NCBI GenBank assembly: GCA_024508915.1
Contig: JANINR010000040.1
Span: forward strand, 1-47,009
Direction: 5' to 3'
Origin: Lysobacteraceae bacterium
Lineage (GTDB): Bacteria > Pseudomonadota > Gammaproteobacteria > Xanthomonadales > Xanthomonadaceae
Length of the DNA stretch: 47,009 nt
Each line of letters starts with the position of its first letter. Position 1 is the first letter of the stretch. The notes under the pieces are model-generated. The model did no database searches. It worked only from the letters and a program-made list of their open reading frames with translations, and had not been told where the DNA came from. A program made the position numbers and the translations under genes. This document shows, in pieces, positions 6,552 to 31,255 of the stretch.

Positions 6552-8000
6552 ATGATCGCGACCCTGCCCACCGCCGCCGACCTGCTGCCGCTGCTGCCGG
6601 AACTGGTGCTCGTCGCCGGCGCGTTCGCGCTGCTGATGCTGGACCTGTTCCTGGACGAGGCGCGGCGCGGCGTCACCAACACGCTGGCGATCGTGCTGTT
6701 GCTGGTCGTCGCCGGGATGGCCTTCGCCGGCACGGGCGGGCAGGGCACCGTGCTCGGCGGCATGTTCGTGCGCGACACCATGGCCGACGTGCTCAAGGCC
6801 GCGGCCTGCGTCGTCACCGCGCTGTCGCTGGTCTACGCCTGGCCGTTCCTGCGCGAGCGCGGGCTGTACAAGGGCGAAGTGGCGGTGCTGATGCTGTTCG
6901 CCACCCTCGGCATGATGCTGCTGATCTCCGCCGGCAGCCTGGTCATGGTCTACCTCGGCCTGGAACTGCTGGCGCTGTGCTCGTACGCGCTGGTCGCGAT
7001 CGACCGCGACAGCGCGCTGTCGTCCGAGGCGGCGATGAAGTATTTCGTGCTCGGCTCGCTGGCGTCGGGCCTGCTGCTGTACGGAATGTCGCTGCTGTAC
7101 GGCGCGACCGGGACGCTCGACCTGGCGACGCTGCATGGCGCGATCGCGATGTCGCAGGAGCGGACCCTCCTGCTGATGGGGACCGTGTTCCTCGTCGCCG
7201 GCATCGCCTTCAAGTTCGGCGCGGCGCCGTTCCACATGTGGCTGCCGGACACCTACCACGGCGCGCCGACCGCGATCACCGTGTTCATCGGCTCGGCGCC
7301 GAAGCTCGCCGCGTTCGCGATGGCGTTCCGCCTGCTGGAAGCCGGCGTCGGCCCGCTCAGCGCCGAGTGGCGGCTGCTCGTTGCCGCGCTCGCGGTGGCT
7401 TCGCTGGCGGTGGGCAACCTGATCGCGCTGGCGCAATCCAACCTCAAGCGCATGCTCGCGTACTCGACGATCTCGCACGTCGGCTTCGTGTTCATGGGCA
7501 TCGCCGCGGCGAACGCAGCCGGCTACGCGGCGGCGATGTTCTACGCGATCAGCTACGCGATCATGGCCACGGCCTCGTTCGGCGCGATCGTGGTGCTGGC
7601 GCGCAATGGTTACGAGTCGGACGGCATCGACGACTTCCGCGGCTTGGCGGCGCGCAGCCCCTGGCTGGCGGGCATGATGCTGTGCGCGATGATGTCGCTG
7701 GCCGGCATCCCGCCGTTCCTCGGCTTCTGGGCCAAGCTCGCGGTGCTGCGCGCGGCGATCGGCGGCGACCTGCTGTGGCTGGCGATCGTCGGCATCGTGT
7801 TCGCGGTGATCGGCTGCTTCTACTACCTGCGCGTGTGCAAGGCGATGTACTTCGAGGCCCCGCCGGAGGGCGTGCCCGCGCCGCGGCCGCACGACCGGAT
7901 CCTGCGCACGGCCTTCGGCGTCAACGCGCTCGCGCTGCTGGGGCTGGGCCTGGCCTGGAACCCGATCATGGCCTGGTGCCAGGCGGCGTTCCCCGGCTAG
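6552..8000 (+). CDS. nuoN: NADH-quinone oxidoreductase subunit N
   Basis: A 482-residue antiporter-like subunit next to NuoK in complex I. Visible motifs are GLELLALCSYALVAIDRD, FKFGAAPFHMWLPDTYHGAPTAITVF and NLKRMLAYSTISHVGFVFMGI. It is the last gene of the nuo operon. Its TAG stop (7998-8000) overlaps, on the other strand, the TAG stop of the convergent ABC exporter gene (7997-7999), the two sharing the palindrome CTAG. I see no hairpin terminator between the two genes. Confidence 0.98.
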   Translation: MIATLPTAADLLPLLPELVLVAGAFALLMLDLFLDEARRGVTNTLAIVLLLVVAGMAFAGTGGQGTVLGGMFVRDTMADVLKAAACVVTALSLVYAWPFLRERGLYKGEVAVLMLFATLGMMLLISAGSLVMVYLGLELLALCSYALVAIDRDSALSSEAAMKYFVLGSLASGLLLYGMSLLYGATGTLDLATLHGAIAMSQERTLLLMGTVFLVAGIAFKFGAAPFHMWLPDTYHGAPTAITVFIGSAPKLAAFAMAFRLLEAGVGPLSAEWRLLVAALAVASLAVGNLIALAQSNLKRMLAYSTISHVGFVFMGIAAANAAGYAAAMFYAISYAIMATASFGAIVVLARNGYESDGIDDFRGLAARSPWLAGMMLCAMMSLAGIPPFLGFWAKLAVLRAAIGGDLLWLAIVGIVFAVIGCFYYLRVCKAMYFEAPPEGVPAPRPHDRILRTAFGVNALALLGLGLAWNPIMAWCQAAFPG

Positions 8001-9727
8001 GCATTCCGCCGCACGGCCGGGCTCCGCGCCGGGCCGGGCGCGCGCGTCGCGGTCGCCACGCCGCTGCCGTCGATCTCCACGGACTGGTCGGCCATGGCCG
8101 CCAGCCCGGTGCGGTGCGAGACGACGACGAGCGCGGCATGCGGCAGTCGCCGCCGGAGGGTCGCGAGCACTCCGCGTTCCGACGCGGCATCCAGCGCGCT
8201 GGTGGCTTCGTCCAGGATCGCCAGCGCCGGCGCGCGAAGCAGCACCTGGGCCAGCAGCAGGCGTTGCAGTTCGCCGCCGGAGAAGCGGCTGCCGGATTCC
8301 TGCAGTCCCGCATCGAGGCCGGCACCGCTCCTGCGCACGCGTCCGGCGAGGCCGACATCGGCCAGCGCGCCCCATATCATTTCGTCCGTCGCATCGGGCC
8401 GGGCCCAGCGCAGGCTGTCGCGCACGCTTGCATGCCAGGGACGGACCTGCTGGCTGACGTAGGCGCTCCTTCCGACGAGCGCGCGGTACCGGTCGAAGCC
8501 GACCTCGCCGTGCGCGTCTTCCGCCTCGAAGACTTCGGGCGTCGCCATTCCCGAAAGGATGTCGACCAGGCAGGTCTTGCCGATGCCCGAGTCGCCGCAC
8601 ACCAGGGTCAGCTCGCCCGGGGCCAGCAGCAGGTCGCGGACCTCGAGCGGCACGAGCGACGCCGGCAGCCGCACCCTGCGGAGGCGCAGGGGACGCAATC
8701 CGCCGCCGGGCGCCTGCGGCGGCGACCGGTCCGCCTGCAGCGACACGTACCGTTGCCACAGTTCGAATGCCGGCACCGCCGAGCGCAGCTGCTGCACGCC
8801 TTGCCGCGTCGATGCGAGGTAGGGCAGGAGGCGCGCCAGCAGCAGGCACACCGCCACCAGCGCCGCCTGGTCGATGCCCTGCCAGCGGTGGGCCACGACG
8901 AAGGCCGCGGCGATCGTCGCGGTCGCGAGCAGCTCCAGCAGGAGCCGGCCGTGCGCGGCGAGTTCGAGCTGTCGCCTGTATCCGCGCCCGAGCTGCGTCG
9001 CCATGTCCGCCCAGGACGCGTGGTCCGCGTGCTGCCGCCCGAAGGAACGGACATGGCGCAGGCGCCGCGGAAAGTCCTCGCCGCGCCAGAACAGGCGGGT
9101 CATGTCGGCCACGTAGGCCCGGCTGATGCGCGACTGTTCGCCGCCGAACAGTTTCGTCGCCATCCATGCGAAGGCCGCGAACACCGGCAACGCCAGCACC
9201 AGCGGCGGCGACACCCAGAACGCGAAGGCGAGGGTCACGGCCGTGGTGACCGCCGCGACCAGCAGCTGCAGCATCGCGGTGAATCCGTGGACGATGATCT
9301 CGACGTTGTAGGTGAGGACATTCGCGATCTCGGCCGACGTCGCGTCGCCGAGCGCGTCGAGCTTCGCGCGGACCAGCCGCGCATGGACCCTGCGGCGGAG
9401 GAAGACGCCGTAACGCGACGCCATGCGCGCGCCGAGGCAGGCCGCGGACCATCGCGACACCGCGAACAGGCCGGAGGCTGCGGCGAACAGGGCCGCATCG
9501 GCTTCGAGGCTTGCCGCCGCCGCCGGGATCCGATCGGCGAACGGCAGCGGCGATGATGGCTGGAGCAGCGGGACCAGGAACAGTGCTGCGAGGCTGCCGG
9601 CAAGCGCCGCGACCAGGGACGCGACCACATACGCGGCGATCCGCCGCCGGTCCGCGCGCGTCAGCGTGCGCCCGAAGGCGCGCAGCAGCGCGCCGCGCGC
9701 GTCAGCCGAGGAGTCGTCGCAGGGCAT
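7997..9727 (-). CDS. ABC exporter, fused membrane and ATPase domains
   Basis: A 576-residue half-transporter of the type I exporter family, expected to act as a homodimer in the inner membrane. Residues ~30-310 form the transmembrane domain. The ATPase domain shows Walker A GDSGIGKT (378-385), Q-loop VSQQ (424-427), signature FSGGE (482-486, a variant of LSGGQ), Walker B ALAILDE (501-507) and the switch His538. There is no peptidase C39 domain at the N-terminus. The start at 9727 overlaps the upstream kinase gene by 26 nt, so the two are coupled. The linker before Walker A is short and the nucleotide-binding domain lacks a clear A-loop aromatic. Similar transporters export lasso peptides and glycolipids; the substrate here is unknown. 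Confidence 0.9.
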   Translation of the reverse strand: MPCDDSSADARGALLRAFGRTLTRADRRRIAAYVVASLVAALAGSLAALFLVPLLQPSSPLPFADRIPAAAASLEADAALFAAASGLFAVSRWSAACLGARMASRYGVFLRRRVHARLVRAKLDALGDATSAEIANVLTYNVEIIVHGFTAMLQLLVAAVTTAVTLAFAFWVSPPLVLALPVFAAFAWMATKLFGGEQSRISRAYVADMTRLFWRGEDFPRRLRHVRSFGRQHADHASWADMATQLGRGYRRQLELAAHGRLLLELLATATIAAAFVVAHRWQGIDQAALVAVCLLLARLLPYLASTRQGVQQLRSAVPAFELWQRYVSLQADRSPPQAPGGGLRPLRLRRVRLPASLVPLEVRDLLLAPGELTLVCGDSGIGKTCLVDILSGMATPEVFEAEDAHGEVGFDRYRALVGRSAYVSQQVRPWHASVRDSLRWARPDATDEMIWGALADVGLAGRVRRSGAGLDAGLQESGSRFSGGELQRLLLAQVLLRAPALAILDEATSALDAASERGVLATLRRRLPHAALVVVSHRTGLAAMADQSVEIDGSGVATATRAPGPARSPAVRRNA

Positions 9728-10688
9728 CGACCGAGCTCCCGGGGTGGGCGCCGCGCAGCAGGCGATGCGCGGGCGCGCGCCGGGCCCAGGCTTCGAATGC
9801 ATCCCAGCCCGGCTGGGTCGCGGCATAGCCCTGGCCGGCGGCCAGGCACGCTGCCACCGACGCGCCGTCCACGGGCGCCAGCCGCGCATCGGGGCCTGCA
9901 GCCGACTGCGCGGAGAGGATCACGGTACCGGCCAGCGCCAGCGGCGCCCGCGCTAGCCGGATGCCCGGCGGCGCGTGCCGCAGGTCGGCTTCGAACTTCC
10001 GTACGCCGCTGCGGCGCTGGATCATCGGTGCGGCGGAGATCCAGGCGCGGGCCGCTGCATCGTCGATGCCATCGAGCGCATCGGGGCGGACGTGCAGGAA
10101 GTTCGCGACGCCGGTCGCCATCATTCCTTCCGGCTGCACGAAGACCGCATCCTCGGAAAGGAAATCCAGGCCCTGCAGCAGGCCGTGCAGGGCGACGGTC
10201 GACTTGCCCGCGCCGCTTTCGCCGAGGAGGAGCACGCCGCGGCCGTCGCGGCCCACGCAGGCCGCATGCAGCGGCACGAGGCCCTGGCAGCGGGCGGCGA
10301 GGAGGAATACGGCGAATTCCACGAGCTCGTAGCGCAGGTGATACGGGTGGTCGAGCATGTCCGACGACGCGACCACGCGCGCGCGCCGGCGTTGCGGCGA
10401 GACCAGCACGAAGTTGTGCGCGTCCATCACCCCGCTGAGGAGGCCCTCGTGCAGCCGCGTCCGGACGGGCGGCGGGTCTCCCGCGGGCCGTGCCCGGCGC
10501 GGCACGAGCCGCAGTTCGACCTCGATCGCGGGGGCATCCTGCGGGAACGCGTGCGGCGCGTGTCCTCCATAGGCCGATTCGACGAGTTCCAGCAGCGCTT
10601 CGCTGTCGCTCTCGAAGCGGAAGCGCCCGCCCATGATCTGCTTGTGCGTGGCGAGGCGCGGCCGTGCGGCGGTCATCATGCGGTGCAT
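9702..10688 (-). CDS. HPr kinase-like (HprK C-terminal family) protein
   Basis: A 328-residue soluble protein with the P-loop fold of HPr kinase. HAACVGRDGRGVLLLGESGAGKST contains Walker A (GESGAGKST, residues 156-164), followed by GLDFLSEDAVFV with the acidic residue D180. The N-terminal ~135 residues lack the canonical HprK N-domain. No HPr substrate gene is nearby. Stand-alone relatives occur in lasso-peptide clusters, where they phosphorylate the peptide C-terminus, and in exopolysaccharide/PEP-CTERM clusters. The start is uncertain: ATGs at 10688, 10679 and 10676 are all in frame and none has a clear ribosome-binding site. The gene is first in a two-gene operon with the ABC exporter and has an island promoter just upstream. 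Confidence 0.85.
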   Translation of the reverse strand: MHRMMTAARPRLATHKQIMGGRFRFESDSEALLELVESAYGGHAPHAFPQDAPAIEVELRLVPRRARPAGDPPPVRTRLHEGLLSGVMDAHNFVLVSPQRRRARVVASSDMLDHPYHLRYELVEFAVFLLAARCQGLVPLHAACVGRDGRGVLLLGESGAGKSTVALHGLLQGLDFLSEDAVFVQPEGMMATGVANFLHVRPDALDGIDDAAARAWISAAPMIQRRSGVRKFEADLRHAPPGIRLARAPLALAGTVILSAQSAAGPDARLAPVDGASVAACLAAGQGYAATQPGWDAFEAWARRAPAHRLLRGAHPGSSVDALRRLLG

Positions 10689-10709: not shown

Positions 10710-10742
10710 CCGTGGGTGCGGGCGCGGCGGCGAAAGGTTGCC
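10710..10742 (-). promoter_or_regulatory. Island ECF-type promoter 1 (kinase-ABC operon)
   Basis: Read on the - strand: GGCAACC (10742-10736), 20 nt ending in GCAC, then CCACGG (10715-10710). The downstream gene starts at 10688 or shortly after. It is one of six sites with identical spacing in this island. It stands back to back with promoter 2, with 10 nt between the two GGCAACC blocks. A run of TTT follows AACC, as in promoters 3 and 4. Confidence 0.75.
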
Positions 10743-10752: not shown

Positions 10753-10785
10753 GGCAACCAAAGGCCCGTCGCCGGGCACCTACGC
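10753..10785 (+). promoter_or_regulatory. Island ECF-type promoter 2 (radical SAM 1 operon)
   Basis: GGCAACC (10753-10759), 20 nt ending in GGGCAC, then CTACGC (10780-10785). The ATG of the radical SAM gene follows only 5 nt later, which predicts a leaderless or nearly leaderless mRNA. The block GGGCAC-YTACGC is almost identical to the one in front of the sigma factor gene (promoter 5). Confidence 0.78.
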
Positions 10786-10790: not shown

Positions 10791-12299
10791 ATGCTCAGGA
10801 TCCACCTCGCCCATTCCTACTTCCTGCGCTTCGACCAGAAGCAGTGGGAACGCGGCAAACCGTACCCGCCGCTCGCCACGCTGCAGGTGGCGGCCATGCT
10901 GCGCCAGGCGGGACACCAGGTGACCCTGTTCGACGCCATGCTCGCCGACGGGGTGGAGGAGTTCGCGGCGACGCTGCCGCTCGCGGCACCGGACCTGGTC
11001 GTCCTGTACGAGGACAACTTCAACTTCCTGACCAAGATGTGCCTGGACCGGATGCACGACGCGGCCTGCACGATGGTGGCCGGGGCGCACGCGGCCGGCA
11101 TCCCGGTGGTCGTCGCGGGGTCCGATGCGTCGGACCGGCCGGAGCGCCTGCTGGAAGCCGGCGCCTCGGCCGTGCTCGTCGGCGAAGGCACCGCGGCATT
11201 GCGCGAACTGGTCGCGCGCCTCGACCGCGACCGCGCGATCGAAGCGCCGCAGTGGGTGTCGGGCGTCGCGGGCGTGGCGTCGCTGTCCGCCCACGACATC
11301 GGGTCCGCGCGAACCGGCGCGCTGCCGCCGGACCGCCGGCTGTCCGGCGATGCGGCCTGGGACCTGGTGGACATGGCGCGCTACCGGCGCGCATGGCTGG
11401 AGCGCCATGGCCACTTCAGCCTGAACATGGTCGCGTCGCGCGGCTGCCCGTTCCGTTGCAACTGGTGTTCCAAGCCGATCTGGGGCAACCACTACGCGCA
11501 GCGCAGCGCGCGCGACGTGGCGGAGGAGATGGCCTTCCTCAAGCGCACCTACGCGCCCGACCACATCTGGATGGCGGACGACATCTTCGGCTTCCGCGTC
11601 GACTGGCTCGCCGAGTTCGCGCGCCACCTCGGCGAGCTCGGCGGCTCCGTGCCCTTTACCATCCAGATCCGCGCCAACATGATCAGCGAGCGCATGGCCG
11701 ACGCGCTCCGGGCGGCGGGATGCGTCGAAGCGTGGATCGGGGCCGAAAGCGGCAGCCAGCGGATCCTCGACGCGATGGCCAAGGACACCTCGATTGCCGA
11801 ACTGGTCGACGCACGCCGGCGGCTGGGAGAGCGCGGCATCCGCGTCGGCTTCTTCATCCAGCTCGGCTACCTGGGCGAGCAGCTGGACGACCTGCTGGCG
11901 ACGCGGGCACTGGTGGCGCGCACGGCCCCGGACGAAATCGGCGTCAGCGTTTCCTACCCACTGCCGGGCACGCGCTTCCACGAGCAGGTCAAGGCGCAGC
12001 TGGGCAGCAAGACGCACTGGAAGGAGAGCGGGGATCTCTCGATGATGTTCCGCGGCGCCTACGATTCCGTGTTCTACCGGCGCGTCCGCGACCTGCTGCA
12101 CTGCCAGGTCGAGCTGCAGCAGTCCGCGCAGCACATGGCGCCCGCCGAAGCGCGCGAGGCCCGCGCCCTGCTCGACGCGCGCTGGGACGCGCTGGTCGCG
12201 TGCGAGCGCGAACACAGGACGCCCGATGCCGCCGCCGTCCCCGCCGTGGAGGCCCTTGCCCATGGACGCGCACATGTTGCCGCCGCTGAAGTCGATTAA
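10791..12299 (+). CDS. B12-binding-domain radical SAM protein 1
   Basis: A 502-residue enzyme. Residues ~1-145 form a cobalamin-binding-like Rossmann domain (PYPPLATLQVAAMLRQAGHQVTLFD, then VVVAGSDASDRPERLLEAGASAVLVGEGTAAL) without the DxHxxG motif, as in BchE-type enzymes. The radical SAM core has the CxxxCxxC cluster motif RGCPFRCNWCSKP with C219, C223 and C226, followed by GAESGSQRILDAM, typical of the SAM-binding strand region. Family members carry out methylations, cyclisations and other radical chemistry; the substrate here is unknown. The ATG at 10791 has no Shine-Dalgarno and lies 5 nt after the predicted -10 element. The 3' end overlaps the next gene by 38 nt. Confidence 0.9.
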   Translation: MLRIHLAHSYFLRFDQKQWERGKPYPPLATLQVAAMLRQAGHQVTLFDAMLADGVEEFAATLPLAAPDLVVLYEDNFNFLTKMCLDRMHDAACTMVAGAHAAGIPVVVAGSDASDRPERLLEAGASAVLVGEGTAALRELVARLDRDRAIEAPQWVSGVAGVASLSAHDIGSARTGALPPDRRLSGDAAWDLVDMARYRRAWLERHGHFSLNMVASRGCPFRCNWCSKPIWGNHYAQRSARDVAEEMAFLKRTYAPDHIWMADDIFGFRVDWLAEFARHLGELGGSVPFTIQIRANMISERMADALRAAGCVEAWIGAESGSQRILDAMAKDTSIAELVDARRRLGERGIRVGFFIQLGYLGEQLDDLLATRALVARTAPDEIGVSVSYPLPGTRFHEQVKAQLGSKTHWKESGDLSMMFRGAYDSVFYRRVRDLLHCQVELQQSAQHMAPAEAREARALLDARWDALVACEREHRTPDAAAVPAVEALAHGRAHVAAAEVD

Positions 12300-13491
12300 G
12301 GCCGGGCTGCACCGCGCGACCGAAGCCCTCGCGGTGGAGCTGGCCGGGCCGGGGACCGCGACGCCGCGCTGGGATCGCCTGCAATGGAAGCTGGCCTCGG
12401 CCGCCGCCGCGGCGCACGGCGTCTCGCCCATGCTGAGCGGGCGTTGCCGCTGGGAGCACGCGCCATGGCAGCACTTCCTGCGCGACCAGCACACCCACGT
12501 CGAATGCCGCCAGCGACGCATCACGGCGCTGCTGAAGCGCATCGACGCCGACGCGCGCGCCGCCGGCGTGCCGGTCGTGGCGCTGAAGGGCTCGGCGCTG
12601 CAGGCGATGGGCCTGTATGCGCCGGGCGAGCGCCCGATGGCCGACATCGACCTGCTGGTCCGTGCCGGCGATGCCGGCGAGGCCGGCCGCCTGCTGCAGG
12701 CGCTGGGATACGCCGAGTCGTACGCGCAATGGAAGCACCTGGTGTTCAAGCCGGTCGATGCACGCCCCGTACCGGGCCTCGGCGAACACTGGGACACGCC
12801 GGTCAACATCGAGTTGCACCTCGGCATCCAGGAACGATTGCCGGTATCGGTCGCCGACATCACGGATCGCGTCTTCCCGCAAGACGCGCAGCCCGGCCTG
12901 AACGGCTACGCGACGACGGGAGGCCTGATGGGCCACCTGCTGCTGCACGCCGCCGGCAGCATCTGCAACCGCAGCCTGCGCCTGATGCACCTGCACGACA
13001 TCGCGCTGCTGTCGTCGCGGATGGCGGCGGACGACTGGCTCGAATTGCATGGCCGCGGCGACGACGCTCCCTGCTGGTGGGCATTGCCGCCGCTGCGGCT
13101 GGCCGATCGCTATTACCCCGGCGTCGTTCCCGCCGGCGTGCTGCAGCGGTTCGCCCGCCAATGCCCGGCGCTGCTGCGCGTGCTGTCGCGCCGCCACACC
13201 CTGACGCGCGTCTCCTGCTCGGAACTGTGGCTGCACCCGCTCGCGGGCGTGGAATGGTCCCGCTCCGCCGGCGACGTCGGCCGCTACCTGCGGGACCGGA
13301 TCAGGCCGTCGCAGGAAGCCGTCCAGGAGCGGGCCGACATGCTGCGCACCCAGCTGTGGCTGCAGGGGCAGGACTGGCCGCAGATGGGGCATGTCCGCCG
13401 CGCGCTGCGCTGGCTGGCGCGCCCGGTGCCGCGGATGGACATCCTGTACGCGGTGCGCGCCGCCATGGAGTCGCCGATCCTTGTCGCGTGA
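12262..13491 (+). CDS. Nucleotidyltransferase family protein (NTP_transf_5 type)
   Basis: A 409-residue protein of the minimal nucleotidyltransferase fold. The core motif lies at about residues 104-134: VVALKGSALQ, then ERPMADIDLLV, with the metal-binding D128 and D130. The rest is alpha-helical. Such proteins occur beside HPr-kinase-like proteins in lasso-peptide clusters and in polysaccharide clusters; the transferred group is usually unknown. The start ATG at 12262 was chosen because GGAG lies 10 nt upstream at 12248-12251; an in-frame ATG at 12226 is possible. It overlaps the radical SAM gene by 38 nt and the following methyltransferase by 11 nt, so the three are likely co-translated. Confidence 0.85.
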   Translation: MDAHMLPPLKSIKAGLHRATEALAVELAGPGTATPRWDRLQWKLASAAAAAHGVSPMLSGRCRWEHAPWQHFLRDQHTHVECRQRRITALLKRIDADARAAGVPVVALKGSALQAMGLYAPGERPMADIDLLVRAGDAGEAGRLLQALGYAESYAQWKHLVFKPVDARPVPGLGEHWDTPVNIELHLGIQERLPVSVADITDRVFPQDAQPGLNGYATTGGLMGHLLLHAAGSICNRSLRLMHLHDIALLSSRMAADDWLELHGRGDDAPCWWALPPLRLADRYYPGVVPAGVLQRFARQCPALLRVLSRRHTLTRVSCSELWLHPLAGVEWSRSAGDVGRYLRDRIRPSQEAVQERADMLRTQLWLQGQDWPQMGHVRRALRWLARPVPRMDILYAVRAAMESPILVA

Positions 13492-14467
13492 GCCGCCCGA
13501 CGCGCCGGCCGCCCCGTTGGCGCCGGGCATCCGCCTGCGCTGCCCGCGTTGCGGCGCGGGCATTCCCGGGATGGAGTGCCGGGCCTGCGGGTTCTCGATC
13601 ACGTTGCAGCACGGCATCGCGCGGGCGCTTCCGCCGGAGTCGATGGCACGCTTCGCCGGCTTCATCCACGAGTACGAGCAGGTGAGGGAAGCGGAAGGCC
13701 GCGGCAGCGACCATGCCGACTTCTACCTCGGCCTCCCCCGGGGCGGCGGCGCGCTGCAGGATCCCCGACAGTGGCAGGTCCGGGCGCGCAGCCATGCCTA
13801 TCTGTGCCGGCGCCTGCTCGCCGGCGCCGGCAAAGCGAACGGCTCCGACCGTCTCCTGGATCTCGGCGCGGGCAATTGCTGGCTGAGCTATCGCCTCGCC
13901 TTGGCGGGCCATCGCCCCTGCGCGGTGGACCTGGTGGCGAACGATCGCGACGGCATGGGCGCCGCGCGCCATTACCTCGCGCGGCTGCCCACGCTGTTCC
14001 CCCGGTTCCAGGCGAGCTTCGACCGGCTTCCGTTCGCGGACGCGCAGTTCGACGCCGCGATCTTCAATGCATCGTTCCACTACACCACGGACGGCGAAGC
14101 CGCGCTGCGCGAGGCGCTCCGGTGCGTGCGGCCGGGCGGGGCCGTGATCATCGCCGACACGCCCTGGTACCCCCGCGAGGCGGACGGACGGCGGATGCTG
14201 GCCGAACGCGAGTCGCACTTGCGGCGGTGCCACGGCGTCGCCGGCGCTTCGATCGCCATGCTCGGGTTCCTGACCGACGCCTGGCTGCACGAAATGGAGC
14301 ACGCGCTGTCGATCCGGTGGGAGGTGCACCGCCCCTGGTACGGGCTGGCGTGGGCGCTGCGCCCCGTCGTCGCGACCTTGCGGGGCAGGCGGCGGCCGTC
14401 GCGGTTCCGGATGTACGTCGCGCGCAAGCACAGCGCGACGCCGGCGCATCACGCCGATCCGCGATAG
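13481..14467 (+). CDS. Zinc-ribbon class I SAM methyltransferase
   Basis: Residues ~21-36 form a four-cysteine zinc ribbon (CPRCG, then CRACG; C21, C24, C33, C36). A Rossmann methyltransferase domain follows with motif I LLDLGAGNCWLSYRLALAGH, then AVDLVAND, the post-I segment FDAAIFNASFHY, and CVRPGGAVIIAD. The start is taken at the TTG at 13481, since the in-frame ATG at 13571 would remove half the zinc ribbon. This overlaps the nucleotidyltransferase gene by 11 nt. The 3' end overlaps the convergent glycosyltransferase gene by 19 nt. It is the last gene of the three-gene operon started by promoter 2. The target molecule is unknown. Confidence 0.82.
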   Translation: MSREPPDAPAAPLAPGIRLRCPRCGAGIPGMECRACGFSITLQHGIARALPPESMARFAGFIHEYEQVREAEGRGSDHADFYLGLPRGGGALQDPRQWQVRARSHAYLCRRLLAGAGKANGSDRLLDLGAGNCWLSYRLALAGHRPCAVDLVANDRDGMGAARHYLARLPTLFPRFQASFDRLPFADAQFDAAIFNASFHYTTDGEAALREALRCVRPGGAVIIADTPWYPREADGRRMLAERESHLRRCHGVAGASIAMLGFLTDAWLHEMEHALSIRWEVHRPWYGLAWALRPVVATLRGRRRPSRFRMYVARKHSATPAHHADPR

Positions 14468-15543
14468 ATCGCCTCGAAGGCGCGCGCCGTGCAGTCGGCG
14501 TCCTCGCGCATCGCCCGGTGCTGCGCGGCCGCTGCCATCCGCAGGCGCAGGGCGTCGTCGCCGACGACCTCCGTGATGGCGGCGGCGAGGGCGCCGGCGT
14601 CGCCGACGGGCACGGCCGACGCGGCCGACGGCGCCCACTCCACCAGGTGCCCGACGGCGGTCCCGACCGTCGGCACGCCCGCGATGGCCGCCTCGAGCGC
14701 GACCAGCGGCCCGGCTTCGTGGCGCGACGACACCACCAGCAGGTCGGCCTGCGCCAGCAGCGGGCGCAATTCGCGCTGCGTCATGAAGCCATGGAAGCGG
14801 ACGCAGTCCTGCAGTCCGAGCGTCGCGGCGAGGGCCTGCATCTCGCCGTGCAGCGTGTCCACGCCGACCAGGTCCGCGGTGAACGCCTGGCCCTGCCGGA
14901 GGAGGACCGAGAGCGCGCGCAGCAGGGTCGGCTGGTCCTTGACGCGATTGAGGCTGGCGACGTGGATGAGCCGTGCCGGGCGGTCGCCACGCGGGCGCGG
15001 CGGCGACACCGGCCACGCGCGCAGGTCCACGCCCAGCGGCACGCGTCGCGCCTCGATGCCCAGGTCGCGCAGCGACGCGATGACCGGCGCGCTGGCCGCG
15101 GTGACGGCATCGGCGACTCGCAGCACCACCGCTTCCCGCAAGCGGCTGATGCGGCGTCGCCGGCCGCCGTAGCCGATGTCGTGCAGGGCGACGAGCTCGC
15201 CCCCGGCGATGTGCACCGCGCTGCGCACGCGCAGCACCGCGGCAGCGGCGACGGCCACCAGCCCGCACGATCCCGAGAAGATGGCGTGGATCACGTCGAA
15301 GCGGGCCCGGCGATGCTCGCGGGCGATCGCGGCGATCGCCCGCAGGCGGGTCCAGCCGTCGCCGATGTTGTGGACCGTCGCGCCGGCGAGCGGCCATTCG
15401 CCCGCGAGGGGCTCCTGCCGCAGCGCGAACACGTGCACGTCGTGGCGCTGCGCCAATCGCTCCACCAGCGCCAGCAGTGCAGGGATCACGCGTCGGTCGC
15501 CGCTGCGGTCGACGCCGCCCGGGACGACGAGCGCGATCTTCAC
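14449..15543 (-). CDS. GT4-family glycosyltransferase B
   Basis: A 364-residue GT-B fold enzyme. The N-terminus has KIALVVPGGVDRSGDRR, typical of the acceptor domain. The C-terminal donor domain shows HVASLNRVKDQPTLLRAL, VRFHGFMTQREL, and the E-x7-E region SSRHEAGPLVALEAAIAGVPTVGT (about residues 277-300). It should transfer a sugar from a nucleotide-sugar at the cytoplasmic face. The GTG start at 15543 overlaps the stop of the upstream glycosyltransferase by 4 nt (GTGA). It is the last gene of the - strand operon. Confidence 0.9.
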   Translation of the reverse strand: MKIALVVPGGVDRSGDRRVIPALLALVERLAQRHDVHVFALRQEPLAGEWPLAGATVHNIGDGWTRLRAIAAIAREHRRARFDVIHAIFSGSCGLVAVAAAAVLRVRSAVHIAGGELVALHDIGYGGRRRRISRLREAVVLRVADAVTAASAPVIASLRDLGIEARRVPLGVDLRAWPVSPPRPRGDRPARLIHVASLNRVKDQPTLLRALSVLLRQGQAFTADLVGVDTLHGEMQALAATLGLQDCVRFHGFMTQRELRPLLAQADLLVVSSRHEAGPLVALEAAIAGVPTVGTAVGHLVEWAPSAASAVPVGDAGALAAAITEVVGDDALRLRMAAAAQHRAMREDADCTARAFEAIYRGSA

Positions 15544-24964: not shown

Positions 24965-25702
24965 ATGCGCCCGACGAAACGAAGCGCGTGCGCGGCCGCG
25001 ATCGCCGTCGCCGGCATTGCGCTCGCCCTGGCCGCGGCGGACGCACCCGCGTCAGGCGACGGCGCCACCGCGCCGAAGGGTCCATCGTTCCTCGACCTGC
25101 GCCGGCAACCTCCGGTCACGGGAGACCCGCAGGCGGGCAAGGCGTCGTCGGCAGTGTGCAGTGCCTGCCACGGCGAGCGCGGCATCGGCATCGCGGCGAA
25201 TTTCCCCAACCTCGCCGCTCAACCGGCGACCTACCTGTATGTGCAATTGGCGTCCTTCAAGGGCGGCCAGCGCAGCGATCCGATCATGGGCCCGATGGCG
25301 GCGTCGCTCGGCGAGGCCGACATGCGCAACCTCGCCGCGTACTACGCGTCGCTTCCATCGCCGCCCGCTGCGGAACCGGGGGCGACAGGGGACCTGCCCG
25401 GCGGCGCGCTCTTCAACGGCGGCGACCCCGCGCGCGGCATCCCGCCCTGCGCGGGCTGCCACGGCCAGGACGGGCGAGGGCCGGCATCCGGCGGCGAAGC
25501 CGGCGCAGCGACGCCGCACCCGCCGTGGCCCACGGTTCCCCGGCTGCGCGGCCAATCCGGCGTCTATGTCGCGAAGGCGCTGCACGATTTCAAGAGCGGT
25601 GCGCGCGGCAACACCAGCAATGCCGCGATCATGCACGGCGTGGCGGGAACGCTGGAGGACGCCGACATCCAGTCGCTCGCCGACTTCGTGGCGGCGAAAT
25701 GA
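24965..25702 (+). CDS. Diheme cytochrome c (c4/class I type)
   Basis: A 245-residue periplasmic cytochrome with a signal peptide (~1-30) and two class I heme domains: CSACHGERGIG with distal Met candidates in DPIMGPM, and CAGCHGQDGRG with AAIMHGVAGTL. Two-domain c4-type proteins shuttle electrons in the periplasm. Here it probably links the inner-membrane respiratory chain to the decaheme/barrel conduit. It starts 11 nt after the barrel gene stop with GAGGATCGAGACG upstream, so it belongs to the same operon. Confidence 0.9.
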   Translation: MRPTKRSACAAAIAVAGIALALAAADAPASGDGATAPKGPSFLDLRRQPPVTGDPQAGKASSAVCSACHGERGIGIAANFPNLAAQPATYLYVQLASFKGGQRSDPIMGPMAASLGEADMRNLAAYYASLPSPPAAEPGATGDLPGGALFNGGDPARGIPPCAGCHGQDGRGPASGGEAGAATPHPPWPTVPRLRGQSGVYVAKALHDFKSGARGNTSNAAIMHGVAGTLEDADIQSLADFVAAK

Positions 25703-25783: not shown

Positions 25784-26569
25784 ATGACGGCCACAGGATG
25801 TCGACACGCACGCAGGTCCGGTGCGCGGGGCCGGGTCCGGTCATGCGTGCGCCGCACCGCCGCCCTCATGCTGGCGTGCCTGTGCGCGCCGCTGCCCGCG
25901 CAATCATTGCGAACCACGGGCGAAGTGGCGGTCGCATCGCAACTGGTGGACCAGGGCCTCGCGCTGACGCCCGGGACGCCGGTGCTGCAGGGCTCGATCG
26001 CGTGGGCGTCGCCCGGCGGATGGTCCTTCGGCGTCGCGGCGGCGGTCGAGGCGCGGGCGCCGACGGAGCCGGTCCTGTCCGTGGCGCGCGTTTCGCGCGC
26101 ATGGATGCCTTCCGGCGACTGGCTCGTGCAGGCGGGGATGCTCCACTACGACTATCGACCGGATGGCGGGCAGGGCATGCCGGATCGCTCCGTGGCGACC
26201 CTTTCCCTGGCCTACCGCGACACGGTCTCCCTGGGCGTGTCGGCCTCGCGCCTCGGCGGCGACATGGCGAATCGCGTGCTCGGCGCCGCCGACGTCGGCA
26301 TCAGCTGGCCGCTGACCGCCCGCACCTCGCTGTCGGCGGGCGCGGGCATCGCGCAAGCGCCGGCATCCCGCTACTACGCCCGGTACCGGAGCCGCCGGTA
26401 CGGGCCCGGACCGGTGCGGGTGTACGGTTACGGCAGCCTGGGACTGGTCTGGCGCGACGGGCCATGGCGCCTGCAGCTCGACCGGACGGCGAACAGCCTC
26501 GGGGACCGTTCCGTCTACGGCGCCAGGGCATCCCAGGAATGGGTCGCGACCTGCTCCCGGGCGTTCTGA
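25784..26569 (+). CDS. Putative outer-membrane porin, TorF/Gcw_chp-like
   Basis: A 261-residue protein with an Arg-rich N-terminus and hydrophobic signal (RTAALMLACLCAPLPAQS, cleavage ~residue 40), then a beta-barrel pattern that begins VASQLVDQGLALTPGTPVLQGSIAWASPGGWSFGV. That opening resembles the TorF/Gcw_chp family of small putative porins. The match is by eye and only moderate. Two clustered basic/aromatic patches (YYARYRSRRYGPGPVRVYGYG) lie near the C-terminus. It sits between the cytochrome operon and the sigma operon; its stop is immediately followed by promoter 5. Confidence 0.6.
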   Translation: MTATGCRHARRSGARGRVRSCVRRTAALMLACLCAPLPAQSLRTTGEVAVASQLVDQGLALTPGTPVLQGSIAWASPGGWSFGVAAAVEARAPTEPVLSVARVSRAWMPSGDWLVQAGMLHYDYRPDGGQGMPDRSVATLSLAYRDTVSLGVSASRLGGDMANRVLGAADVGISWPLTARTSLSAGAGIAQAPASRYYARYRSRRYGPGPVRVYGYGSLGLVWRDGPWRLQLDRTANSLGDRSVYGARASQEWVATCSRAF

Positions 26570-26602
26570 GGCAACCGATCCGCCGCCCCGGGGCACTTAC
26601 GC
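26570..26602 (+). promoter_or_regulatory. Island ECF-type promoter 5 (sigma factor operon, autoregulatory)
   Basis: GGCAACC (26570-26576), 20 nt ending in GGGGCAC, then TTACGC (26597-26602), 40 nt before the sigma factor ATG. It matches promoter 2 closely in both blocks and in the GGGCAC shoulder. The same motif upstream of the sigma gene and of its neighbours is the usual sign of ECF autoregulation. Confidence 0.78.
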
Positions 26603-26642: not shown

Positions 26643-27227
26643 ATGAACCAGGCGACCGCCCGCGCCGACGCCACCGACCAAGCGCTGCTCCAGCGCATGG
26701 CGACGGGCGATCGCGCGGCGCTGGCCACGTTGTACCGGGAGTACCACGGCCGGCTGTGCCGGTTCCTGTCGCGACTGACCCGGCGCCAGGACATCATCGA
26801 GGAAGTCGTCAACGACTGCTTCTGGATCGCGTGGCAGCACGCGGCCGACTTCCGCGGCGACGCACGCGTTTCCACGTGGTTGATGGGCATCGCCTACCGC
26901 TGCTGCCTCAAGGCGCTGCGCAGGCAGGGCAGCGAGCCCCTGGACGAACTCACCGACGAAACGATGCTGCCCGAACCCGACGGCGGGATCGACGCGGACG
27001 AAGACCGCGAGCTGCGCGACCTGCTGGGAAAGGCGCTGGGGTTCCTGAGCGCGGAGCAGCGGGTGGTCGTCGAGCTCGTCTATGGCGTCGGGCACAGCCT
27101 CAACGAGGTCGCGGCGATCGTGCAGTGCCCCGTCGGGACCGTGAAGGCGCGCCTCTTCCATGCCCGGGTAAAGCTGCTCAACGTCATGCCGGCGCTGAGC
27201 GGCGACACGATGAAGCGGGGAGGTTGA
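26643..27227 (+). CDS. ECF-type RNA polymerase sigma factor
   Basis: A 194-residue protein with only the sigma2 and sigma4 regions. Sigma2 is at ~20-93 (LATLYREYHGRLCRFLSRLTRRQDIIEEVVNDCFWIAWQHAADFRGDARVSTWLMGIAYR). Sigma4 is at ~130-178 (LSAEQRVVVELVYGVGHSLNEVAAIVQCPVGTVKARLFHARVKL), with a helix-turn-helix. It directs RNA polymerase to a dedicated promoter set. The proposed set here is the six motif-bearing sites, including its own. The anti-sigma gene begins 3 nt after its stop. Confidence 0.95.
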   Translation: MNQATARADATDQALLQRMATGDRAALATLYREYHGRLCRFLSRLTRRQDIIEEVVNDCFWIAWQHAADFRGDARVSTWLMGIAYRCCLKALRRQGSEPLDELTDETMLPEPDGGIDADEDRELRDLLGKALGFLSAEQRVVVELVYGVGHSLNEVAAIVQCPVGTVKARLFHARVKLLNVMPALSGDTMKRGG

Positions 27228-27230: not shown

Positions 27231-27872
27231 ATGGCCCTGCCGCCGCGCACCAACAAGGATTGCGTGCTCGCCTGGGAGGCGATGCCCGACGCATTGCAGG
27301 GCGCGCTGACGCCGCACCAGCAGGCGTGGCTCGACGGACACCTGGCGTCCTGCGACGCCTGTCGCGGCCAGTTCGAACAACAGCGTCGCCTGCAGCGCGC
27401 ACTGCGCCTGCCGCCCGATCCCGGGCCGGACATGGAGGCAGGCCTGCAGCAACTGCTGGCCCGCATCGATGCACAAGAGATGCCGGCGGCGCGCGAGCCG
27501 CTGCGGTCCTCCGGCTGGGCCGGGCGCGCCCTCGTCGCCGCCGTGCTGGTGCAGGCGATCGGGCTCGGCGTGCTCGGCGCCCGGCTCTGGACGTTGTCGC
27601 CGGCGCCTGCCCCCGAGTACCGCACCCTCAGCCAGGACACCGCGCCGCTGCCGGCGGGGTCCATCCGGCTGGTGCCCGATCCCGCGATGCCGCTCGCCGA
27701 CTGGGACGCGCTGCTGCAGGCCAATGCGTTGCGCGTGGTCGCGGGGCCGAACGCCGTCGGTGCCTACACCGTCGTCCCGTTCCCCGATGCCGGCGGAGGC
27801 GACGCGCTACTGCAGCGCCTGCGCTCGACCCGCGGCATCCGCCTGGCCGAGCCCGTCGCCGGCGCTCCCTGA
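27231..27872 (+). CDS. Membrane anti-sigma factor with zinc finger and protease-prodomain-like tail
   Basis: A 213-residue single-pass membrane protein. The cytoplasmic N-terminus has a zf-HC2-type zinc finger, H37-x3-C41-x2-C44 (GHLASCDAC), with C11 as possible fourth ligand. One membrane helix spans ~98-120. The periplasmic tail ends in a domain at ~157-209 that aligns with residues ~87-141 of the next gene product. Shared positions include ALR..AG, G.Y..V, D.LL..L and R.AEP. It should hold the sigma factor inactive until a signal. Its stop overlaps the next ATG (TGATG at 27870-27874). Confidence 0.88.
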   Translation: MALPPRTNKDCVLAWEAMPDALQGALTPHQQAWLDGHLASCDACRGQFEQQRRLQRALRLPPDPGPDMEAGLQQLLARIDAQEMPAAREPLRSSGWAGRALVAAVLVQAIGLGVLGARLWTLSPAPAPEYRTLSQDTAPLPAGSIRLVPDPAMPLADWDALLQANALRVVAGPNAVGAYTVVPFPDAGGGDALLQRLRSTRGIRLAEPVAGAP

Positions 27873-29185
27873 TGCGCGCGCTCCCGTTCCTGCTCGCGGC
27901 AGCCGCGGCCCTCGGCGGCTGCGCGCATGCGACCGCGCCGGCGCTCCGCGGCGCGGGCGACGATGCGACGATCGTCGGCGGCAGCCACGCGGCGGAGATC
28001 GACGGGCAGCGCGACATCGTGGTGACGCTCGCCAATCCGGTGGTGCCGCCGGGGGCGCATGCCGCTTCCAACATCCTCGGCTATGGCATCGGGAGCGGTT
28101 ACCGGAACGGCCAGCGCGCCATGTCCGTGCTGGCCGAACTGAAGCAGCGCTACGCGCTTCGCGAGATCGCCGGCTGGCCGATCGTGCCGCTTGGCGTGTA
28201 CTGCGCGGTGCTGCGGCCTGCGCCCGGCGTGGATCGCGACGTCCTGCTCGAGGCGTTGTCGCGCGACGAGCGCGTGCGCATCGCCGAGCCCTTGCACGAG
28301 TACGACCTGTACGCCCGGCCGTCCGCGGCCGCCGTGCGCTACAACGACCCCTACGTCGGCCTGCAGCACGGCCTGGCCGACATCGACGCGGCCTCCGCGC
28401 AGCGCACGAGCCGCGGGAAAGGGGTCGACGTCGCGCTCGTGGACACCGGCGTGGACCTCGCCCATCCCGACCTCAAGGGCCGCATCCGCGGCACCTACAA
28501 CCTGGTCGACGGCGACGCCGCGGCATTCAACGCCGATCGGCACGGCACCGAAATCGCCGGCGTCATCGCCGCCGTCGGCGACAACCACGAAGGCATCGTG
28601 GGCGTCGCGCCCGAAGCGACGCTCAGCGTCTACAAGGCCTGCTGGCATTCCGCCGCACCGGCGTATGCGCGCTGCAACACCTTCACCCTGGCCAAGGCGC
28701 TGGCGGCGATCGTCGACGCCGGTCCCCGGATCGTCAACCTGAGCCTCGGCGGCCCGCCGGATCCGTTGCTCGAGCAACTGCTCGAGGCGTTGTTGCGCCA
28801 GGACCGCATCGTGGTCGCGGCGATGCCGCCGAGCGGCCGGGTCGAAGGATTCCCCGCGGCGACTTCGGGCGTGATCGTGGTGCGCTCCGCACAGGCGGAG
28901 GCGGCGCCGGCGGGGGTGGTGGACGCGCCCGGCACCGACATCCTGACCACCCAGCCCAACGGCCGGTACGACTTCGCGTCCGGATCCTCGCTGGCCGCCG
29001 CGCATGTCAGCGGCATCGCCGCCCTGCTGCTGGCGCTTTCGCCGGAACTGGATGCCGACGGCGTCAGGAGGATCCTTCGGCGCAGCGCGGCCGGCGGCGG
29101 CAACGGGCTGGTGAATGCCGCGGCGGCCGTCGCCGCGCTGTCCGCTCCCGGGCCGGGGCGCGCGCGCGCAAGTACCGCACCGTAA
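27872..29185 (+). CDS. S8 (subtilisin-like) protease lipoprotein, oxyanion Asn replaced
   Basis: A 437-residue putative lipoprotein (lipobox LGGC, C17). An N-terminal domain (~87-141) resembles the anti-sigma tail and an inhibitor-I9-like prodomain. The subtilase domain follows with Asp191 (VALVDTGVD), His224 (DRHGTEIAG) and Ser373 (ASGSSLAAAHVSG). The oxyanion-hole Asn expected in AAGN is not there; the segment reads AAMPPSG (Pro319). Activity is therefore uncertain. It probably acts at the cell envelope, either cleaving or simply binding the anti-sigma factor. Third gene of the sigma operon; its stop lies 6 nt from the convergent neighbour's stop. Confidence 0.87.
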   Translation: MRALPFLLAAAAALGGCAHATAPALRGAGDDATIVGGSHAAEIDGQRDIVVTLANPVVPPGAHAASNILGYGIGSGYRNGQRAMSVLAELKQRYALREIAGWPIVPLGVYCAVLRPAPGVDRDVLLEALSRDERVRIAEPLHEYDLYARPSAAAVRYNDPYVGLQHGLADIDAASAQRTSRGKGVDVALVDTGVDLAHPDLKGRIRGTYNLVDGDAAAFNADRHGTEIAGVIAAVGDNHEGIVGVAPEATLSVYKACWHSAAPAYARCNTFTLAKALAAIVDAGPRIVNLSLGGPPDPLLEQLLEALLRQDRIVVAAMPPSGRVEGFPAATSGVIVVRSAQAEAAPAGVVDAPGTDILTTQPNGRYDFASGSSLAAAHVSGIAALLLALSPELDADGVRRILRRSAAGGGNGLVNAAAAVAALSAPGPGRARASTAP

Positions 29186-29191: not shown

Positions 29192-31255
29192 CTAACGCCC
29201 GACAGGCACGGGCGCTTCCCCGCAGCGCAAGGATGCGGCATCGGCAGGCAGGGACGACGCGTCGCCCTGCAGGTAGATCGCATAGGTTCCGCACGCCAGG
29301 GCGCGGAATCCCCTGGCTTCGAGGACGCGCTCGATCTCGTCGCGCCACGGGGCGACGCGCGCGAACACGACCGCGCTCACGCGATACCGGGCGAGCGACG
29401 CCTCGAACCAGCGGTCCCCGTCCGGCGGGCGATAGTCGCCCGACACGTAGCGCATCATGTTGCTGCGCTGGGCGGTTTCGGCGGGCGTGAACACCAGGCT
29501 GAGGTACATGTGGCGGACGCCGACCGTTTCCGGATGGACGGCGAACACCGGCAACCACGTGGCGATCTGCTCCGGCGCGACCACCACGCCTTGTTCCGGC
29601 ACTTCCTCGACGACCTGCCTGGCCACGGCGAATTCCAGCGGCGGAACCTTCGGCCCCGGCTTGCCGAGGGTGACGGCGTTCGCGCGCCGCAGGGTGCCGT
29701 GCCGCCAGCCGAAGGTGAGCGCGCCGGCCACCAGGACCAGGCAGCAGCACGCCGCGAGCGCCTTCGATTCCAGCCGCAGGAGGAGGGCGGCGATCCCGTC
29801 GATGGTGACGGCCAGGAAGAACGGCAGGGGCAACGCCCAGGTCAGTCGCCAGTACGTCTGCGCGCCGACGTAATGTTCCGCGACGAAGGGCGTGGTGTAC
29901 GGGTTGAGCGCGACCAGGAGGAAGAAGAAGGCGCCCGCGGAAAAGTATCGCGCGCGCGCCGGGTCGCGCACGAATGCCCACGCGGCCAGCAGCGACACCA
30001 GCAGGATCCGCATGCTCCAGGGTCCCCACGTATCGGCGAGCAGCTCGGGGATGGTGGGCATCGGGATGGGGCTGGAGATCGACAGCACCTGCGCGCCGCG
30101 CGTCTCCCTCGCCACCAGCATCGCTGCGCCGACGGGATACCCCGTCGCCAGCATCCCGAGCAGGAAGCGTCGCGTGCGCGCGAGGTCAGGCCACCAGCCG
30201 CCGGCCAGGCCCAGCGCAGCGGCGGCGGGCGCCACGAACATGCCGCTCGCGGCACAGCCGATCGCCGCGACCTGCGTCGCGAGCAGCAGGAACCAGTGGC
30301 GCAGTCCGCCGTGGCGCGCGTACAGCAGCGCGGCGCCCGCGATGGCGGGGACCATGCACGTCGCGAGCACGGACTTGCCCTGGAACATGCGCACGAACGC
30401 GAAATTGCCGTACGCGCGATGGACCTCGCCGAGCGCCATCACGCAGGCGAAGAGGATCGCCAGCACGACCGGCCACCGCGCCGGAACGAGGCGTCGCAGC
30501 AGGAACACCCACGCCAGGATCGAGAGCGCGGCGAACATCGCGGGCAGGAGCGCATAGGCGACGACCAGATGGTCGATGCCGGTCGCGCGCGCGGCCGCGC
30601 CGATCAGGACGTCGTAGTTCGCCAGGCGGTAGAACGGCAGCAGGATCGGGGCATCGGGCAGCCGGTACATCGTGTCGTGCAGCAGCACCGGGGCCTGCGG
30701 AAGCCGCAGCAGGGTCGCGGACACGCTGACGTGGTAGGCGTCGTCCGCGTCCGGCCGGTTCGAAAACAGGACCACGCAGATCGCCGCGACGACGATGCAG
30801 GCCACGACGCCCGTTTCGACCGGGAGGCTGCGATCGCTCCGGTCCGGCTCGCCCGCGGCGCGCGGGCCGTGGCGGAGGGTCCACTGCCATGCCGCCCCCA
30901 TCGCCGCAAGCCCGATCCACCAGGCCAGGGGATAGGGCAAGCCCCAGGACAACAGGCCCACCCACAGCACGGCGAAAGCGAGCGCGGCGACGGACACGGG
31001 CCAGAGGCGGCCCGGAACCGTCCCGGGGATTCCGCCGCGCCCGGCGTCGCCCGCCGCGGCGGGCTCGCGCAGGCGGAACCAGCCGACCGTCGCCGCGACG
31101 GCGACGACCGCGAGCACCGGGAGACCGCGGACGAGGGTGGTGAAGCTGGCCTGGGCCGCGACGATGACGTGCACGTATGCGGTCCAGAGCGCACAGGGCA
31201 ATACGAAGGCCGGCAGCAACCGGTCCCAGATCCGCCCGTCGGTTGCGAATCGCAT
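29192..31255 (-). CDS. Large multi-pass membrane protein, DUF6077/GT-C-like
   Basis: A 687-residue integral membrane protein with ~12 hydrophobic segments up to about residue 540 and a soluble C-terminal domain. The segment RPDADDAYHVSVSATLLRLP (about residues 167-186) resembles the acidic first-loop motif of GT-C glycosyltransferases and of DUF6077-type proteins; the call is by eye only. GT-C enzymes transfer sugars from polyprenyl-phosphate donors on the periplasmic side. The ATG at 31255 has a G-rich leader. It is convergent to the protease gene and preceded by promoter 6, which puts it in the proposed regulon. Confidence 0.7.
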   Translation of the reverse strand: MRFATDGRIWDRLLPAFVLPCALWTAYVHVIVAAQASFTTLVRGLPVLAVVAVAATVGWFRLREPAAAGDAGRGGIPGTVPGRLWPVSVAALAFAVLWVGLLSWGLPYPLAWWIGLAAMGAAWQWTLRHGPRAAGEPDRSDRSLPVETGVVACIVVAAICVVLFSNRPDADDAYHVSVSATLLRLPQAPVLLHDTMYRLPDAPILLPFYRLANYDVLIGAAARATGIDHLVVAYALLPAMFAALSILAWVFLLRRLVPARWPVVLAILFACVMALGEVHRAYGNFAFVRMFQGKSVLATCMVPAIAGAALLYARHGGLRHWFLLLATQVAAIGCAASGMFVAPAAAALGLAGGWWPDLARTRRFLLGMLATGYPVGAAMLVARETRGAQVLSISSPIPMPTIPELLADTWGPWSMRILLVSLLAAWAFVRDPARARYFSAGAFFFLLVALNPYTTPFVAEHYVGAQTYWRLTWALPLPFFLAVTIDGIAALLLRLESKALAACCCLVLVAGALTFGWRHGTLRRANAVTLGKPGPKVPPLEFAVARQVVEEVPEQGVVVAPEQIATWLPVFAVHPETVGVRHMYLSLVFTPAETAQRSNMMRYVSGDYRPPDGDRWFEASLARYRVSAVVFARVAPWRDEIERVLEARGFRALACGTYAIYLQGDASSLPADAASLRCGEAPVPVGR

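Follow-up and report, generated by a model that had tools for sequence, protein, structure and literature searches.

Among the closest described systems, the Escherichia coli RpoE-RseA-DegS-RseP pathway (PMC8103513) comprises an extracytoplasmic function (ECF) sigma factor, a membrane anti-sigma factor, an autoregulated operon, and an envelope-related regulon, with a periplasmic serine protease presumed to be the first cutter. In group ECF54, according to PMC8999054, a subtilase gene adjoins the sigma factor gene, and subtilase control of the sigma factor was proposed in the absence of an anti-sigma factor. Outer-membrane electron conduits (DmsEF, PioAB, MtoAB; PMC8805035) pair a decaheme DmsE-family cytochrome with an MtrB/PioB porin. 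Apart from the absence of an anti-sigma factor in the ECF54 proposal, these traits are shared by a gene island in a 47,009-nt stretch of DNA (contig JANINR010000040.1 of the Lysobacteraceae bacterium assembly GCA_024508915.1, positions 1 to 47,009, forward strand; hereafter the window), in which six copies of a bipartite promoter element were found. The ECF sigma factor encoded in the window very probably reads all six of them, judging from the distribution of the element.

In an earlier reading of the window from its letters (hereafter the sequence-only reading), six sites of the form (G/A)CAACC-N16-G(C/T)AC-YYAYSS (i.e., RCAACC-N16-GYACYYAYSS; the strict pattern) had been proposed, with exactly 20 nt from AACC to YYAYSS and with no further site in the window. 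All six were present, with coordinates right to within 1 nt, and fit the strict pattern; the 20-nt distance held for each, and the pattern search returned these six matches only, three per strand. Across the whole genome (2.39 Mb, 99.8% complete), the strict pattern again matched six times, every time in the island, vs. 0 matches for the reversed-pattern control. Equally frequent matches at random genome sites had been named as the observation that would count against the proposal, and no further exact match existed. When the pattern, shortened by its last two letters, was permitted a single mismatch, nine extra genome places were obtained vs. 13 for the reversed control, i.e., no excess. A 16-column matrix was derived from the six sites of the window, which score 22.2–24.1 by this matrix of their own; the next best position in the window, inside ntp5, reached 15.2, and nine control regions with only a related MtrAB module reached 14.4 at most.

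Conservation was assessed in held-out genomes selected via the rsamB protein, which had matches in 98 of 398 genomes of the order, 69 of them (own genome not counted) being strong (64–77% identity). Thirty of these 69 genomes and the same-genus genome G168 provided 31 regions of 36–40 kb each, and a site was counted if the window-derived matrix scored at least 14 within 250 nt upstream of a gene. The six sites, all assigned by the pattern, are as follows:

10712..10741, minus strand: P1, candidate promoter of hprK-abc, GCAACC-N16-GCACCCAC; orthologous site before hprK in 27/31 held-out genomes
10754..10783, plus strand: P2, candidate promoter of rsamA-ntp5-mtA; before rsamA in 31/31 held-out genomes
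21021..21050, minus strand: P3, candidate promoter of mtC-amid-mtB-rsamB-gtB-gtA; before mtC in 21/31 held-out genomes
21066..21095, plus strand: P4, candidate promoter of mtrA-mtrB-cytc-torF; before mtrA in 4/8 held-out genomes, before the alternative b561 operon in 12/15
26571..26600, plus strand: P5, candidate promoter of the sigma operon, sigma-antisigma-S8 (autoregulation); before the sigma gene in 27/29 held-out genomes
31287..31316, minus strand: P6, candidate promoter of the DUF6077 gene; also present in the same-genus genomes G168 and G151

The last base of YYAY lies 7–42 nt from the start codon (32 nt for hprK, counted from the first ATG at 10679). At P2 the start codon follows 7 nt past the element, so that a leaderless or nearly leaderless transcript would be expected. 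The divergent sites P3 and P4 form a perfect inverted repeat at 21042-21074, AAAGGTTGC-N15-GCAACCTTT, with the -35 boxes back to back.

Besides the leading genes listed above, fdtA (21/28) and the DUF6077 gene (1/2) were preceded by a site in the held-out regions. Among 23 non-leading genes, p454 had a site in 3/18 regions, and the other 22 had none (ntp5, rsamB, mtrB, cytc, torF, the anti-sigma gene, S8, wzy, wzx, degT, cyt131, ccmC, ccmE, gtA, gtB, mtB, amid, wzz, gt2, gnat, gh, and neuD); control stretches 300–570 nt inside genes gave one match overall, in torF. Spacer length was likewise constrained, with 103 matches at N16 in the 31 regions vs. two at N10–N15 and N17–N23 combined (thirteen lengths). 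In G168, five of the six places carry a site, i.e., those before hprK, rsamA (a variant), mtrA, the sigma gene, and the DUF6077 gene. A chance origin of the sites was rejected on the grounds of their genome-wide uniqueness, the controls, the held-out operon starts, and the fixed spacer. An RNA leader element in place of a promoter was set aside because the spacer letters vary while the boxes, their spacing, and the position at operon starts are fixed.

The occurrence of the element was compared with that of the sigma gene in 52 genomes. The 32 genomes taken as carriers held 146 pattern matches vs. 33 for the reversed control (about fourfold), and the remaining 20 held 10 vs. 14; in the 31 held-out carriers, 103 of 140 matches fall inside the fetched 36–40 kb. 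Two of the 20 genomes, G151 and G017, do carry a close sigma factor (78% and 65%), and their four matches lie in front of the sigma and DUF6077 genes in G151, and in front of rsamA and in the interval from wzz to mtC in G017. The 18 genomes without a close sigma factor (best match ≤45%) gave six matches vs. 14 for the reversed control, i.e., no excess. Named genomes were scanned for sigma loci, and the best 80 of 212 loci were analysed, which span Luteimonas sp. 8-5, Lysobacteraceae bin FW602_bin.31, Rhodanobacter, Dyella, Luteibacter, Frateuria, Pinirhizobacter, Xanthomonas, and unclassified bins. Just as P5 precedes the sigma gene of the window, for which such a site had been claimed, 79/80 of these loci hold an equivalent site scoring at least 11.9 (68/80 at least 14), in a set that overlaps the held-out genomes, so that the two tests are not independent. 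Control stretches reached 14 in 33 of 3298 cases, some of which are probably true sites elsewhere in the loci. The promoter form shared by the genomes is GCAACCTTT-N13-GGYACYYAY, the last block of which varies in several Xanthomonas copies. The sigma factor itself matched Pfam Sigma70_r2, Sigma70_r4_2, and TIGR02937 above cut-off and has regions 2 and 4 only (about 190 aa).

The sequence-only reading had described a self-activating ECF regulon, and this description is supported by the uniqueness of the sites in the genome, the conserved operon starts, and the tracking of sigma presence. Several points weigh against it. Besides the overlap of the two tests, 12/80 sigma loci score below 14, one of them (L165) being without any site; abc was preceded by a site in just 12/29 held-out regions and mtrA in 4/8; and no site was found before mtC, the P3 equivalent, in G168. 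Furthermore, relatives hold many other ECF paralogues (24–45% identity), and a non-cognate ECF sigma factor reading the sites is possible for this reason.

A gene model was built from codon usage together with Pfam and NCBIfam matches, and operon membership was inferred from strand and spacing. This yielded 19 genes at 7997-31255 in the six units named above, with one site heading each. The sequence-only reading had grouped 16 of 17 genes into one regulon; the grouping stood, and the gene count had to be corrected to 19, all of them within the six units:

7997..9727, minus strand: abc, ABC exporter (family matches)
9702..10679, minus strand: hprK, HprK-related kinase (family matches below cut-off)
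10791..12299, plus strand: rsamA, B12-binding radical SAM protein (family matches)
12262..13491, plus strand: ntp5, NTP_transf_5 nucleotidyltransferase (family match)
13571..14467, plus strand: mtA, methyltransferase, frame open from 13391 (gene model, family match)
14449..15543, minus strand: gtA, GT4 glycosyltransferase (family match)
15540..16664, minus strand: gtB, GT4 glycosyltransferase (family match)
16680..18203, minus strand: rsamB, B12-binding radical SAM protein (family match)
18226..18924, minus strand: mtB, methyltransferase (family match)
18924..20162, minus strand: amid, amidohydrolase (family match)
20164..20997, minus strand: mtC, methyltransferase (family match)
21134..22288, plus strand: mtrA, MtrA/DmsE-type decaheme cytochrome, 10 CXXCH (family matches)
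22314..24953, plus strand: mtrB, MtrB/PioB outer-membrane porin (family matches)
24965..25702, plus strand: cytc, cytochrome c, 2 CXXCH (PdsA-like, below the cut-off of that family)
25847..26569, plus strand: torF, TorF-like porin (family match below cut-off)
26643..27227, plus strand: ECF sigma factor of 194 aa with regions 2 and 4 (Pfam, TIGR02937)
27231..27872, plus strand: anti-sigma factor with zf-HC2, one membrane helix, and a periplasmic domain (family match, structure model)
27872..29185, plus strand: S8 subtilase with an N-terminal lipobox-like Cys, a prodomain, and a catalytic domain (family match, structure model)
29192..31255, minus strand: DUF6077 polytopic membrane protein (family match), perhaps a GT-C-like glycosyltransferase by its sequence

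For HprK, the reading frame 9661-10779 was discarded in favour of 9702-10679. A cluster for a lasso peptide or another ribosomally synthesized and post-translationally modified peptide was considered in view of the HprK, NTP_transf_5, radical SAM, and ABC genes; it was less favoured because no asparagine-synthetase-like domain was found among the scanned genes (small precursor reading frames were not searched for) and because genes of the Wzz, Wzx-like, and sugar-nucleotide kinds are present in a relative.

MtrB relatives were found in 12/198 genomes of the family, including the genome itself, and the surroundings were taken from 10 of the other 11. Of these ten, G168 alone carries the complete island at that place, flanked by nuoN and rimP, and G151 has the sigma and DUF6077 genes on other contigs. 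In five same-genus genomes without the island, nuoN lies within about 50–150 nt of tRNA-Met; the island therefore occupies a clean site between nuoN and tRNA-Met (about 8000 and 34831 in the window), which suggests a tRNA-linked insertion site. An RNA-family scan of the window returned only this tRNA-Met (34831-34907). Between the island and tRNA-Met lies a gene for a TonB-receptor-like barrel (31530-34706), which was left out of the regulon since it has no promoter element upstream and nothing in the G168 region matches it; this gene may have been inserted there independently of the island.

Taken as a whole, the observations are likely best explained by six promoters of the ECF sigma factor of the island, a resting state imposed by the anti-sigma factor, and release by the subtilase. 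The sigma factor (26643-27227) would recognise a -35 box GCAACC (often GCAACCTTT) and a -10 box G(C/T)AC(C/T)(C/T)A(C/T) across a fixed 16-nt spacer, and would activate five units besides the operon that encodes it, by which surface-glycan enzymes would be co-produced with the outer-membrane conduit (MtrAB, cytochrome c, and TorF-like porin). At rest, the sigma factor would be bound by the zinc-finger domain of the membrane anti-sigma factor. Subtilisins are inhibited by their propeptide, which the periplasmic domain of the anti-sigma factor resembles; the subtilase would dock on this domain, as on a decoy, and, on a signal, would cleave the anti-sigma factor as the site-1 protease. Action of the subtilase via this domain has about an even chance of being correct.

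The anti-sigma factor matched zf-HC2 above cut-off, and H37, C41, and C44 of its Hx3Cx2C motif (the motif of zinc anti-sigma factors, as named in PMC7406223) were invariant in 59 sequences. With an N-terminal helical Hx3Cx2C domain and a gene adjoining that of the sigma factor, it belongs to class I (zinc). Its periplasmic domain (residues 145-208) was modelled in the order β-α-β-β-α-β with block pLDDT values of 80–96, the whole model having a pLDDT of 78.8 and a pTM of 0.39. The subtilase matched Peptidase_S8 above cut-off, and D191, H224, N289, and S373 were invariant in 40 sequences, i.e., the triad and the oxyanion Asn are intact. Its prodomain was modelled in the same β-α-β-β-α-β order, and the match to pro-subtilisins spans the prodomain and the catalytic part. 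The subtilase is a putative lipoprotein. Its lipobox-like Cys17 is not universal: among 16 sequences it was conserved in 90% or more, and in a set of 40 it fell outside the 90% list.

An S8 relative accompanies the sigma and anti-sigma genes in 78/80 named loci. Matches to the anti-sigma profile were found in 22/369 genomes of the class sample and 10/398 of the phylum sample, own genome included in each, and 18 stretches were chosen from 17 of these genomes as a distant set. An S8 relative adjoins the sigma gene in 14/18 of these stretches, and a TorF-family match lies nearby in five of the eight that were gene-listed (four above and one below cut-off; torF is matched weakly in a sixth). Sigma factor, anti-sigma factor, and subtilase thus recur as a set in distant Proteobacteria. 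Plastocyanin-like copper proteins adjoin the triad in two loci from distant members of the order (L238 7213-7983, match below cut-off; L247 11941-12336, by eye).

Two other explanations bear on the sites themselves. The repeated element could be bound by another regulator (an activator or another sigma factor), with the neighbouring sigma gene merely lying under one copy; the reader of the element is not nameable from sequence alone, and the ECF paralogues of the relatives are numerous. The element, however, consists of two boxes held exactly 16 nt apart and is placed relative to start codons as a promoter would be, it precedes the sigma gene itself in nearly all named loci, and the genomes without a close sigma factor show no excess, all of which makes a different reader unlikely. 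Site conservation could also reflect recent transfer of one little-diverged gene block without selection on the sites, as might be suspected from the patchy distribution of the island in the genus and its location between two genes that adjoin in five congeners. Yet the proteins of the held-out clusters have diverged from those of the window (rsamB 63–77%, sigma 65–72% identity), and the spacer letters vary while both boxes and their spacing stay fixed, which renders this explanation highly improbable.

For the subtilase, the choice is closer. It could be a product of the regulon, e.g., a surface processing or quality-control protease, the C-terminal domain of the anti-sigma factor being an unrelated ferredoxin-like sensor and the first cut possibly coming from a housekeeping protease; this explanation has a substantial chance, a little short of even. 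Against it stand the company that the subtilase keeps with the sigma and anti-sigma genes in the named loci and distant stretches counted above, and the mean alignment score given below. The predicted fold of the domain is suggestive of a subtilisin propeptide. Rows 1–4 of the VIA-align comparison were PC1/3 (furin-type) and subtilisin BPN' prodomains (Z 7.7–8.1, rmsd 2.6–4.2, 66–74 residues), where Z values below 8 may mean a mere common arrangement; the lower rows contained many more subtilisin propeptides mixed with other ferredoxin-like folds. Such folds occur widely, and the same matches include ribosomal protein S6 as well as ACT and Lrp-type domains. A profile alignment placed the anti-sigma C-terminus on the S8 prodomain in register over 55 columns (36% identity, E 0.008), with a probability of just 4.9%. 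The mean score of anti-sigma C-termini vs. S8 prodomains was 39.8, compared with 25.6 for shuffles and 24–27 for other S8 regions, in a 12 by 12 comparison of related sequences that are not independent. The low Z values and the low profile probability count against a propeptide link, as do the following results. Foldseek searches with the anti-sigma domain gave nothing at E ≤0.001 and placed EF-1 beta, S6, and ACT above prodomains. Pairwise sequence similarity was weak, most single anti-sigma/prodomain pairs failing (8/40 with ≤2/200 shuffles reaching the score) and 0/6 distant pairs being significant. Finally, no S8 gene was seen beside the sigma gene in four of the 18 distant stretches (L245, L246, L252, and L253).

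On the electron-transfer side of the regulon, MtrA scored 254.6 against TIGR03508 (cut-off 192.2), and MtrB scored 233.3 against PF11854 (cut-off 23) and 165.6 against TIGR03509, below its cut-off of 240.05. A decaheme MtrA-family cytochrome and an MtrB-family porin thus stand in tandem, as defines the MtrAB type. In three relatives with listed genes (G006, G455, and G386), the same gene order runs on into a polysaccharide set, which in G006 comprises, by Pfam, Wzz, GT2, a Wzx-like flippase (Polysacc_synt), a DegT aminotransferase, GNAT and hexapeptide transferases, and FdtA. The window retains the HprK/radical-SAM/methyl- and glycosyltransferase half plus MtrAB; no Wzx, Wzz, or polymerase, as would mark a Wzx/Wzy cluster, was found among the scanned window genes (the rest of the genome was not searched).

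In the relatives, a redox operon usually lies between the polysaccharide set and torF-sigma, and consists of either b561-p454-small cytochrome c or mtrA-mtrB-cytc. Within 10 kb of the sigma gene, p454 was found in 55 of the 80 loci, mtrB in 15, both in none, and neither in 10, some of the loci being short contigs; mtrAB is not directly before torF in seven of the 15 mtrB loci. The p454 protein begins like a signal peptide, carries a single CXXCH near the N-terminus, and resembles a barrel over the rest of its length (by eye), and we take it, by this motif, to be a probable Cyc2-like cytochrome-porin, although no family model matches it; the alternative to MtrAB in the relatives is probably of this kind. 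Rhodanobacter, Dyella, Luteibacter, and Xanthomonas mostly pair the sigma system with a polysaccharide cluster plus MtrAB or the Cyc2-like porin. The balance tips towards glycan enzymes and electron conduit forming one physiological unit. Cytochrome c maturation genes (ccmC, ccmE) were observed behind the subtilase gene in L089 (genome G006, 489-1970), and ccmC lies behind the triad in 18/80 named loci. Cytochrome assembly may be part of the same regulon in such loci; no promoter element preceded ccmC (0/4) or ccmE (0/3) in the held-out regions.

Compared with the described systems, the island departs from each of them in its own way. Where the RpoE system has DegS (HtrA family) and RseA/RseB, the island has an S8 subtilase within the operon and an anti-sigma factor with a propeptide-like domain. 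Profile positions 16–55 of this anti-sigma factor match RsiW of the SigW-RsiW pair (PDB 5wuq), a class I zinc anti-sigma factor, with E 0.004, and the two differ in the periplasmic part. Unlike in ECF54, an anti-sigma gene lies between the sigma and subtilase genes. The conduit differs from MtrAB systems in lacking an MtrC-type gene among the scanned island genes and in sharing an ECF regulon with genes for glycan enzymes. Cyc2 cytochrome-porins, for which PMC10654088 links Acidithiobacillus Cyc2 to homologs in Rhodanobacteraceae, resemble the p454 of the relatives (absent from the window) in CXXCH and barrel-like remainder. Among the results listed for open PMC text, neither this regulon nor an anti-sigma factor of this kind was described, and an earlier listing in the ECF classification is possible. 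New here are the conservation of the sites, the constancy of the spacer from genome to genome, the two interchangeable redox operons, and the pairing of a propeptide-like anti-sigma factor with a subtilase. Tentatively, these would add up to a new envelope switch, in which an anti-sigma factor with a borrowed subtilase propeptide is cut by a dedicated subtilase, with the TorF porin as a frequent partner, and which couples conduit to polysaccharide in Xanthomonadales. A regulon with a defined promoter can be assigned to a sigma factor that occurs in Rhodanobacter, Dyella, Luteibacter, and Xanthomonas, and outer-membrane electron conduits would come under the same switch as surface polysaccharide. 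With such coupling, the glycan may belong to extracellular electron exchange. If the propeptide-like nature of the anti-sigma factor is borne out, protease-inhibitor recognition would serve as a signal-transduction device, with the prediction that the subtilase carries the input.

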